Below, in pieces: positions 34,336-35,559 of a DNA stretch of 36,839 nucleotides (within the stretch, counting starts at the first letter, position 1; each line of letters begins with the position of its first letter). The position numbers and the translations under genes were made by a program. The DNA lies in assembly GCA_016285645.1 (NCBI GenBank), contig JAEERC010000006.1, positions 1 through 36,839 of the forward strand. The letters run 5' to 3'. The DNA comes from Clostridiaceae bacterium (GTDB taxonomy: Bacteria; Bacillota; Clostridia; Oscillospirales; Acutalibacteraceae). The notes beneath the pieces are model-generated. The model saw only the letters and a list, made by a program, of their open reading frames with translations, ran no database searches and had not been told where the DNA came from.

Positions 34336-34554
34336 TCATCTCCCCGAAGCCCGTTTTTCAATTATCAGTTGCGCGGAGCCGTCCTCGAGCGAGTTGAACC
34401 GGTCATAGTGAATATGGCTGCCCTCCGCCTCACCGGCAAGAGCGGTCAGTTGCTCCGCCAGCGACAGCAGACCATCTCTGTTCGCGGAGACGGTGACCTC
34501 ATCGCCGTTTGTTTTTACCTCAATTTCATATCCTTCACGCCATTTTATATCCAT
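34336..34554 (-). CDS. Small protein resembling Imm32-type immunity protein
   Basis: A 72-residue protein beginning MDIKWREGYEIEVKTNGDEV. It contains SANRDGLLSLAEQLTALA and GSHIHYD, then NSLEDGSAQLIIEK, a pattern I associate with immunity protein 32 in polymorphic toxin systems. The match is from memory and not verified by search. The ATG at 34554 has CGGAG upstream. Its stop (34336-34338) is 4 nt before the HEAT-repeat gene start, so the two are in one operon. Confidence 0.6.
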   Translation of the reverse strand: MDIKWREGYEIEVKTNGDEVTVSANRDGLLSLAEQLTALAGEAEGSHIHYDRFNSLEDGSAQLIIEKRASGR

Positions 34555-34568
34555 AATTAATCTCCGTA

Positions 34569-34706
34569 TCATATATTCCGCGTGAGGCGTCGGTTATTCA
34601 TCTCCGCCGCGGTCGGAATACAGTTTTTCTCATAATCGGTTTCGTTGTGAACAAACAAAACCGCCCCGTTGCTTACTACATTATCACGCGCAGGTGAAAA
34701 ATTCAA
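34569..34706 (-). CDS. Possible 45-residue ORF upstream of the immunity-like genes
   Basis: An open frame from a TTG at 34706 encodes LNFSPARDNVVSNGAVLFV and then HNETDYEKNCIPTAAEMNN, ending 14 nt before the Imm32-like ATG. The composition is protein-like, but no ribosome binding site is evident. It could be the remnant of a toxin C-terminus or of another gene, or chance. I recognise no family. Confidence 0.3.
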   Translation of the reverse strand: MNFSPARDNVVSNGAVLFVHNETDYEKNCIPTAAEMNNRRLTRNI

Positions 34707-34714
34707 TAAAACAC

Positions 34715-34743
34715 TTGATTTTTACAGCGAAGTCATATATAAT
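34715..34743 (+). promoter_or_regulatory. Promoter of the tRNA-Ser gene
   Basis: TTGATT (34715-34720), 17 nt, perfect TATAAT (34738-34743), followed by an inverted repeat ATCGCT/AGCGAT. The predicted start is about 35 nt before the tRNA. Confidence 0.75.
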
Positions 34744-34784
34744 ATCGCTTGCAATTTAATAGCGATGTCAATTTGACACAACAC

Positions 34785-34876
34785 GGAGAGTTGTCCGAGC
34801 TGGTCGAAGGAGCACGATTGGAAATCGTGTAACCGTTAAAAGCGGTTCGAGGGTTCGAATCCCTTGCTCTCCGCCA
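34785..34876 (+). tRNA. tRNA-Ser(GGA)
   Basis: A class II tRNA of 92 nt including encoded CCA. The acceptor GGAGAGT pairs with GCTCTCC, with discriminator G. The anticodon stem CACGA/TCGTG encloses loop TTGGAAA, anticodon GGA at 34820-34822. The long variable arm (around ACCGTTAAAAGCGGT) is typical of tRNA-Ser. The T-arm is GAGGG-TTCGAAT-CCCTT. Confidence 0.95.
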
Positions 34877-34878
34877 AC

Positions 34879-34910
34879 AAAAACACCGAGACTTTTGTCT
34901 CGGTGTTTTT
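34879..34910 (+). terminator. Terminator 1 of the tRNA-Ser locus
   Basis: A 14-bp stem AAAAACACCGAGAC/GTCTCGGTGTTTTT with loop TTTT directly follows the tRNA CCA. Confidence 0.85.
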
Positions 34911-34918
34911 GCTTTGAT

Positions 34919-35071
34919 GGGATTCGAAGCCTGAGAGGGTGAGCGGCGTTAAGAAAACAGTCCGGCGGACTGTTTTCAGCCGCGAAGTCCGAGGCGGGTA
35001 CTGTTGCGAAGCAACGGTCGCCGAGGATGCAAGGATTTGCGCAGCAAAGACTTATCCCTTGCTCTCCGCCA
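34919..35071 (+). repeat. tRNA-3'-end repeat element, copy A
   Basis: The 153-bp element starts GGGATTCGAA, the inverse complement of part of the tRNA T-arm, and ends with an exact copy of the last 18 bases of tRNA-Ser (35054-35071, ATCCCTTGCTCTCCGCCA). Inside are a perfect 11-bp hairpin with arms 34953-34963 and 34967-34977 and loop GGC, and a second hairpin GTTGC-GAA-GCAAC at 35003-35015. The end segments GGGAT and ATCCC could pair to close the structure. It is followed by terminator 2. Confidence 0.75.
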
Positions 35072-35073
35072 AT

Positions 35074-35109
35074 AAATCAGTTCGCCCGTCAGGGCGGGCT
35101 GATTTTTTT
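35074..35109 (+). terminator. Terminator 2 of the tRNA-Ser locus
   Basis: A stem of about 14 bp (AAATCAG to CTGATTT with an inner CGCCC/GGGCG and two G-T pairs) with a GTCA loop and a T-run lies directly after the second copy of the tRNA 3' end. Confidence 0.85.
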
Positions 35110-35116
35110 GTATTGA

Positions 35117-35230
35117 GGGATTCGAACAGCGAGGGGAGTTGAGGCAGAGCCGAAACCAAACACTCCGGTGGAGTGTTTGCCGAGTCGCAACGAGCGAAGC
35201 GAGGCGATAATAATCCCTTGCTCTCCGCCA
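35117..35230 (+). repeat. tRNA-3'-end repeat element, copy B
   Basis: A 114-bp relative of copy A. It starts GGGATTCGAA and ends with the same 18-base tRNA end (35213-35230). Its main hairpin (35158-35166 with 35170-35178) differs from that of copy A by an exchanged base pair, AAACAGTCC to AAACACTCC with GGACTGTTT to GGAGTGTTT, and loop GGC to GGT. A GCGAAGC motif follows in both. It is followed by terminator 3. Confidence 0.75.
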
Positions 35231-35233
35231 TGA

Positions 35234-35272
35234 CAGACAAGGAGTTTTTACAATTCCTTGTCTGCTTTTTTT
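35234..35272 (+). terminator. Terminator 3 of the tRNA-Ser locus
   Basis: A 10-bp stem CAGACAAGGA/TCCTTGTCTG with an 11-nt loop and CTTTTTTT after it lies directly behind the third copy of the tRNA 3' end. Its sequence is unrelated to terminators 1 and 2. Confidence 0.85.
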
Positions 35273-35380
35273 ATCCCGAAAATATCAATTTTCTGCAAAA
35301 AAGGCGACGATTTGGCGACCAAATTTTTTTATAAATATCCCGATGCCTCTCAAGGCAGTTTGACAGCACTAATAATTAAA

Positions 35381-35410
35381 GCCCGTATCACTGCGATACG
35401 GGCATTTTTT
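35381..35410 (+). terminator. Terminator-like hairpin in the gene-free stretch 35273-35559
   Basis: A 9-bp stem GCCCGTATC/GATACGGGC with loop ACTGC, followed by ATTTTTT. No gene lies just upstream on the plus strand. The rest of the stretch is A/T-rich, and I see no ORF or RNA in it. The hairpin may be left over from an integrated element. Confidence 0.65.
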
Positions 35411-35559
35411 GTTGTTGAATATTGCTTGGAAGAAAAAATTTGGTTGCACAGCTTTTCGTGAATGATTGTATTATATCGCTATTTCATGTTAACGGGTTGC
35501 AGTCTATGCGGTCAATGTTAAAATATTATCTCATTATTATTCTTCACCTGTGTATTCTT

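Follow-up and report, generated by a model that had tools for sequence, protein, structure and literature searches.

The tRNA-Ser(GGA) gene of the window (the whole stretch of DNA that was analysed, 36,839 bases) is followed by two short units that have entered the T-loop of the gene one after the other, and units of the same anatomy lie behind many other tRNA genes of one large gut and rumen family of Clostridia. Insertion at the window site is precise, serial and gene-restoring. Our best explanation, which we hold tentatively and at slightly less than even confidence, is a family of gene-free, non-autonomous elements that are site-specific for T-loops (also for tmRNA and the 3' end of rpsI) and whose movement in trans would probably involve a folded, single-stranded form.

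The 3'-terminal 18 bases of the tRNA (ATCCCTTGCTCTCCGCCA) have three occurrences in the window, all on the plus strand, so that the two further copies reported in the preliminary description are the only ones (Table 1). Terminator-like hairpins start at the 2nd, 3rd and 4th base past the three copies and enter T tracts. Their sequences are mutually unrelated, as had been claimed; T1 and T3 are listed inverted repeats and the mismatched T2 was read by eye. The claim that both inter-copy segments open with the inverse of the T-arm is likewise correct: each starts with GGGATTCGAA, which is reverse-complementary to a stretch of the T-arm (at 34919 and 35117). The hairpins of the two units (CAGTCC/GGACTG and CACTCC/GGAGTG) do differ by one exchanged pair, which had been read as a compensatory change, but this is weak evidence when taken alone as units A and B are different unit types, long and short, with further hairpins predicted in unit A; strong covariation comes instead from a 104-row alignment (see below). 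An Rfam search of positions 34500-35500 of the window returned only the tRNA at the gathering score, and the phage and plasmid records searched gave no match. The pattern at this locus is not due to chance, because the same anatomy is found behind many tRNAs in many genomes and because this site carries zero, one or two units within the genus.

Table 1. Features of the tRNA-Ser(GGA) locus and its two units (positions in the window).
Feature	Positions	Strand	Basis or remark
tRNA-Ser(GGA), target gene	34785..34876	+	ARAGORN; insertion point in T-loop (between ggttcga and atccc), by alignment of empty, one-unit and two-unit sites
Functional tRNA 3' end, nt 59-76; copy 1 of 3 of the 18-base repeat	34859..34876	+	
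T1, terminator-like hairpin, came with unit A	34878..34911	+	Inverted repeat; missing at one-unit and empty sites
Unit A arm, reverse complement of tRNA nt 50-63, one mismatch	34919..34932	+	
Unit A core hairpin	34943..34983	+	Closing stem GCGGC/GCCGC, internal loop GTTAAG/CA, 10-bp stem, triloop; R1 match; covariation
Unit A second hairpin	34993..35022	+	Predicted fold
tRNA 3' end, copy 2	35054..35071	+	
T2, terminator-like hairpin	35074..35105	+	Sequence resembles terminator in unit behind tRNA-Gln of the same genome
Unit B arm, exact 12-base reverse complement of tRNA T-arm	35116..35127	+	Inverted-repeat pair
Unit B core hairpin	35157..35179	+	Weak R1 match, 26.7 bits
tRNA 3' end, copy 3, displaced native end	35213..35230	+	Site alignment
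T3, native terminator-like hairpin	35234..35264	+	Inverted repeat; directly behind tRNA in G007 (L050)

Three genomes of the genus carry zero (G007, locus L050), one (G039, locus L044) and two (the window) units at this tRNA gene. At the empty site, T3 and the flank come straight after the tRNA. An alignment of the three sites shows that the unit junctions are clean and lie in the T-loop, and that the native terminator is always last; the single unit in G039 has its core hairpin deleted. This comparison indicates that T3 is the native terminator, that the type B unit inserted first, and that unit A arrived later and closer to the tRNA, which bears out the earlier suggestion of serial integration that rebuilds the tRNA end. 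Behind tRNA-Gln(CTG) of the window's genome there is a unit that is 87% like unit B, including its terminator, and that is preceded by the tRNA-Gln 3' end. A hairpin repeat (TTACGARC...GAGTAACAAGGTTCT...AGGTTCTT) was also observed, inserted within tRNA-Gln 3'-end copies (L002, positions 1400-1710).

To search for related units, a covariance model (R1) was built from 16 core hairpins, including that of unit A, which matches R1 with 67.2 bits at positions 34941-34986. A model search of related Clostridia had been proposed in the preliminary description, and it did recover matches, many of them behind tRNA genes. Within the family, 106 of 300 genomes matched at E <= 1e-4, covering 60 of 135 genera, and under a stricter threshold about 78 genomes matched below 1e-6, with another at 1.0e-6. 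Across the phylum, a single genome in 398 matched at E <= 1e-6, the window's own, in a sample whose listed members include one other genome of the family (matchless) and four other genomes of the order. A DNA search matched 29 of the 45 genomes of the genus, some via the tRNA-Ser end alone. An exact-pattern scan of public genomes identified at least 119 stretches and, among the matches listed, eight are, going by their record titles, from outside Clostridia (four from Bifidobacterium, and one each from Sphingomonas, Rhodobacterales, another alphaproteobacterial MAG and Treponema), some of which may be chance matches or binning errors. We considered and set aside a spread across phyla: in Sphingomonas, what matched is probably a terminator hairpin that fits by chance, since relatives carry other hairpins at that place. 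Two Bifidobacterium genomes, B. biavatii (G341) and B. goeldii (G342), have 27 and 31 R1 matches at E <= 0.01; the few hairpins read are dispersed at sites other than tRNA genes, and in one of them a similar loop pattern is combined with a different stem.

The complete chromosome of Ruminococcus sp. FMBCY1 has 10 R1 matches at E <= 0.01, and each of them adjoins copies or remnants of the 3' ends of genes. Seven lie directly behind a tRNA, namely tRNA-Leu (two genes), tRNA-Thr (two units) and tRNA-Arg (three units), while two are flanked by tRNA-Leu-type ends with no adjacent tRNA and one is flanked by rpsI-type ends. As this chromosome is complete, draft assembly is not the general cause of the units.

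Among 135 matches (in the 119 scan stretches listed and one viral contig), 71 are within 300 nt behind a tRNA or tmRNA gene. A same-strand upstream tRNA was found for 77 of the 114 non-redundant matches in the searched loci, at a distance of at most 500 nt in 75 and at most 200 nt in 65, and units accompany 23 kinds of tRNA when counted within 700 nt. The preliminary description had named the tRNA 3' end as the target. Most copies are indeed tied to gene 3' ends, but insertion takes place within the T-loop region (nt 54-61), and tmRNA and the 3' end of rpsI are further targets. We read eight rpsI-like loci. In seven, the order by eye is the rpsI end, a terminator, a short inverted arm, the core, a copy of the rpsI end and a terminator; the arms are 6-8 nt long (mismatched in three) and the core is in the other orientation. 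The rpsI copies reach the stop codon and are degenerate in one locus (L165), and another locus (L210) has no intact rpsI gene on its upstream side.

Units without a close tRNA number 49, five of which were too short in sequence. The 44 that were tested include tandem second units and two units behind a tmRNA end (L070 and L111, by eye). Across the core, 26 have a direct repeat (12 nt or longer), and 13 have an inverted match of 9 nt or more; shuffled sequences (one shuffle each) gave none. The expectation that copies are tied to the 3' ends of tRNAs or other genes holds for most units, while 15 of these 44 have neither an arm partner nor a repeat and show no target.

Several other arrangements were observed around these loci. 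In a mirror case (L132 and L147), the core is behind the 5' half of a tRNA-Pro, with the promoter region and then a complete tRNA-Pro after it. At three loci (L060, L061 and L064), another body that differs from the units described here (GGGGTGAGAAG...GGGGTCCCCGAAAAGTCC) is present behind tRNA-Val or tRNA-Ala and shares the anatomy of repeated tRNA 3' ends and terminators. Past the terminators of some unit-bearing tRNA loci (L101, 1720-2284; L102, 3300-3540; L020; L052) there are arrays of small unlike hairpins with a constant spacer, for example ATATCAC, GATGAAATC or GTGAAGT, and the arrays in L101 and L020 precede a four-helix-bundle-like gene (named by eye).

Arms and 3'-end copies were characterised statistically in the 65 units that are at most 200 nt behind a tRNA. 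The arm is about 10-20 nt long and is located between the foreign terminator and the conserved core. In 62 of the 65 units it is complementary to the T-arm and acceptor of its own tRNA with a score above all 20 shuffles of the unit (the exceptions are L069, L110 and L161), and 47 of the 65 best arm matches are free of mismatches. The mean score of the arm is 13.6 with the tRNA it sits behind and 8.6 with other isoacceptors. In just 36 of 65 units does the own tRNA outscore all others, because the T-arms of different tRNAs are alike. An exact copy (at least 12 nt) of the tRNA 3' end occurs within 420 nt in 48 of the 65 units, and the displaced 3' ends are degraded in some units. Comparing the terminators behind both ends of these 48 units over 25 bases, 10 pairs are nearly the same (24 or 25 bases), 36 pairs share 13 bases or fewer, and the remaining two share 21 and 17.

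The units, roughly 115-200 bp in size and gene-free, fall into classes. Class A (32 units) has an arm from nt 50-52 and a copy from nt 59 (exactly nt 59-76) in 18 of the 25 copies found, and class C (20 units) has an arm from nt 54 and a copy from nt 61 in 10 of the 12 found; since both classes were defined partly by the arm start, the start of the copy is their sole independent trait. Class E (eight units) is defined by its core, with an arm from nt 54 in seven of eight units and a copy from nt 55 in four of eight. Five units are unclassed. The positions at which arms and copies start in each class indicate that the arm bridges the insertion point, whose position seems to depend on the class. 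In classes A and C, the arm and the 3'-end copy overlap by just 7-8 bp or so.

Nearly the same core can be found at different targets in one genome. In G229, tRNA-Leu(TAG) and tRNA-Met carry type E cores that agree at all 71 nt, and the one at tmRNA has three differences, two of which form a compensating pair. The 3'-end copies at the three genes are each gene's own, although the tRNA-Met unit (L110) is weak, with an arm that does not exceed its shuffles, one change in the copy and one difference in the triplet before the core. In G014, a block of terminator, arm and core with two alignment differences precedes AACTCTCCGCCA at tRNA-Ser(GGA) and AACCCTCCGCCA at tRNA-Ser(CGA). In G141, units at tRNA-Pro and tRNA-Trp have matching arms, and the tRNA-Trp unit has a second repeat between its core and its own end. 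The flanks thus follow the target. The second repeat in G141 (about 145 bp; L314, L315 and L316) is inserted and in tandem behind cores, with TCAAGTCC at its ends.

We surveyed the neighbourhood of the units for a mobility enzyme by clustering 619 ORFs within 3 kb of the cores and inspecting the 25 widest clusters, among which no recurrent mobility gene was present in more than three loci. The two widest clusters (20 and 16 loci) have a median distance of 0 and are mostly open frames over the units themselves; these are followed by an ABC-type ATPase (8 ORFs in 7 loci) and by rpsI and its neighbour (7 and 6 loci). Serine-recombinase ORFs are located 403 bp (L252) and 490 bp (L238) from a core. 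Their cluster of three ORFs was rejected as a systematic partner, as the third member (L190) joined it through a SpoVT-like tail alone. Several recombinases per genome can be expected in bacteria of this kind. Genes were likewise rejected as regular cargo on the grounds that 48 of 65 units close with a copy within 420 nt. The candidates, named by eye, were a methyltransferase-like ORF behind the unit in L057 and L099 and a peptidase-like ORF between units in L102. In L099 (16300-18800, minus strand) the methyltransferase-like ORF comes after a left end of class C at tRNA-Ser(GGA), and the 19.5 kb piece holds no further copy of the tRNA end. Four-helix-bundle ORFs occur near cores in three loci. 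The corresponding family (PF05635) was found in 11 of the 18 high-copy genomes examined and in 5 of the 18 copy-free ones, which is not decisive. The high-copy set comprised 18 of the 21 genomes with at least five matches (the best E in G177, G199 and G323 being 3e-6 to 5e-5) and the copy-free set 18 of 20 listed matchless genomes, with 174 more matchless genomes beyond that list.

The units could instead be relics or minimal satellites of tRNA-specific islands. They would then have ordinary tyrosine or serine integrase sites, with an attP that bears a terminator as well as the tRNA 3' end, and a larger island would supply the integrase that moves them. Islands commonly use the 3' ends of tRNA, tmRNA and rpsI genes, and the portion of the Islander literature available to us describes islands that restore the target and displace its end (PMC4383910). 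An element of this kind would be expected to bring its own terminator, in keeping with the terminators being nearly the same at both ends in just 10 of 48 units, and the two serine-recombinase ORFs close to cores also point in this direction. Against this, the units are tiny, with conserved folded cores and target-matched inverted arms, near-identical cores are found at different tRNAs with different 3' ends, and beyond L252 and L238 no integrase gene was recurrent among the 25 widest clusters. We regard such an origin as rather unlikely, with an appreciable chance of being correct.

The covariation of the core bears on whether the units act as DNA or as RNA. In the R1 alignment of 104 distinct rows, 94.6% of the cells are paired and 12 of the 15 pairs show double changes (202 double-changed cells). 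G-U pairs make up only 15 of 1460 paired cells in the core, compared with 81 of 717 when the acceptor stems and T-stems of 61 tRNAs at these loci are counted (consensus pairs). They are thus about 10 times rarer in the core (Fisher p ~2e-26), with the caveat that the rows are related, not independent, and selected by a model that was built mostly from Watson-Crick pairs and so favours such matches. When counted in minimum free energy structures the contrast is small (core 5.4%, terminators 8.1%, the 60 nt behind the core 7.7%; 22 tRNA pairs parsed). As the helices covary yet nearly lack G-U pairs, the evidence favours a folded DNA strand as the best fit for the cores, short of proof. The preliminary description had left the choice between a structured mobile element and an RNA element; the structure and its recurrence are confirmed, and the rarity of G-U pairs favours folded DNA. 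The internal loop of the core is asymmetric (6 versus 2 nt), which a folded strand would explain and a dimer site on duplex DNA would not. A k-turn was considered by eye for the ACAGA/GA loop and dropped, since type E alone fits.

An element acting at the RNA level, whose transcript folds, pairs through its arm with the tRNA or its gene and is copied back behind tRNA genes by a reverse transcriptase, would suit the class A copies, which cover exactly nt 59-76 in 18 of the 25 found, and the fact that copies end at CCA; nt 59-76 is the stretch copied during retroviral tRNA priming. The scarcity of G-U pairs relative to the tRNA stems of the same loci argues against it, as do the class C and E copies, which mostly start at nt 61 and 55, and the rpsI copies, which stop at the stop codon and not at an RNA end. 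We consider this explanation unlikely. It is also improbable that the units are resident regulatory or protective structures of tRNA loci, immobile now and under selection, with arms matched via template-switch correction of imperfect palindromes. The arms are well kept (47 of 65 without mismatch) and the core covaries, which would suit such structures, but the distribution is patchy (106 of 300 family genomes, and zero, one or two units at one locus within the genus) and displaced 3' ends decay in some units. Single-strand transposition of the IS200/IS605 kind, in which the arm would serve as a lengthened guide sequence next to the hairpin base, is quite improbable, for although the internal-loop hairpin, the guide-like arm just 5' of it, the conserved short site (TTCRA), the lack of genes and the somewhat higher frequency of Y1_Tnp in high-copy genomes (12 of 18, compared with 6 of 18 copy-free genomes) recall such elements, Y1_Tnp is unmatched in 6 of the 18 high-copy genomes (with strong R1 matches in G117, G158, G208 and G285), the arm of 10-20 nt is longer than the roughly 4 nt of known guides, and IS605-type insertion leaves no copy of the target end. 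The Y1_Tnp counts, taken from drafts that do not include the window's genome, neither show nor exclude a helper role.

Under our preferred reading of non-autonomous elements moved in trans, what moves would be single-stranded DNA, folded and probably circular. Its arm would pair with the 3'-end copy, and the short duplex so formed would imitate the T-arm of the tRNA. A recombinase supplied in trans, by the host or another element, might then swap this mimic with the real T-arm, much as folded single-stranded sites are used by integron cassettes and CTX phage. The proposal of such a mimic is based on the arm together with the scarcity of G-U pairs and the asymmetry of the internal loop. The split target stays whole, as the 3'-end copy and a foreign terminator come directly behind it and the native end with its terminator is pushed downstream. 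Several points count against this reading. No mobility gene was recurrent among the ORF clusters inspected, the folded stem of classes A and C would be short, given their overlap, and from a classical site-specific recombinase one would expect each element to have a single fixed attachment core and not one per target. The 29 units whose own tRNA is not strictly the best match, the three units with no arm above their shuffles, the 15 without a visible target and the small G-U contrast in minimum free energy structures weigh in the same direction. Arm and 3' end may be re-matched to a new target by rewriting at insertion, or later by gene conversion selected for a working tRNA. That the core is fixed while the ends are rewritten for each target, with both the direct 3'-end copy and the inverted copy across the insertion point gained at insertion, is possible but doubtful. 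If the ends are rewritten, one small folded DNA could use many tRNA genes, tmRNA and some protein genes harmlessly.

The units resemble several known systems. Integron attC cassettes, CTX phage sites and IMEX sites act as folded single strands whose paired ends form the recombination site and whose structure is kept over sequence. The folded strand proposed here, with paired ends that would form the site, amounts to a resemblance to these systems; we know of no integron integrase or dif site for these units, and the last base of the core GTTAAGA does not fit the attC R' box (GTTRRRY). MITEs, REP/BIME and PATE sequences are short, non-autonomous, palindromic and dispersed, whereas our units sit in T-loops with a target-specific arm and 3' end. 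Their arms follow the target tRNA in place of element-own terminal inverted repeats that are constant across sites, and no autonomous transposon sharing the unit ends was seen among the ORFs within 3 kb of cores. IS110 and IS200/IS605 elements choose their target by base pairing; the arm of our units differs in place and length, and no matching protein is established.

Islands at tRNA and tmRNA genes share more with the units. To our knowledge, a conserved folded core with a target-matched inverted (antisense) arm has not been described from tRNA-site islands, and the arm sets the units apart from them. Both involve a gene that is split and restored, a displaced 3' end that forms a direct repeat, and tandem stacking; a restored target with a displaced 3' end is seen at the window site and in the 48 of 65 units with a copy. 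In the parts of these papers available to us, Islander islands split and restore tRNA genes (PMC4383910), and the ssrA islands of Dehalococcoides, which are arranged in tandem and leave behind a repeat of 20 bp, are inserted in the middle of the T-loop (PMC3146451); our units, too, insert in the T-loop. Such islands carry genes, in many cases for integration, whereas our units, of about 115-200 bp, are too small to hold an integrase gene and have one core at many targets. No motif of this kind is mentioned in the available portion of a survey of structured RNAs in human microbiomes (PMC8040213), and two further papers, as far as their accessible parts go, treat other phenomena at tRNA genes (PMC5217627, PMC10589994). 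Searches of the open literature by title and opening abstract lines, a scope outside which most subscription papers and bioRxiv preprints fall, yielded no paper describing such elements.

These units add a very small class of insertion to those found at tRNA genes, present in about one third of the sampled genomes of one large gut and rumen family of Clostridia, and they account for the unusual direct repeats and extra terminators that follow tRNA genes in this family. If their ends are truly rewritten at each insertion, they would represent a new way for DNA to choose, and to spare, its target.
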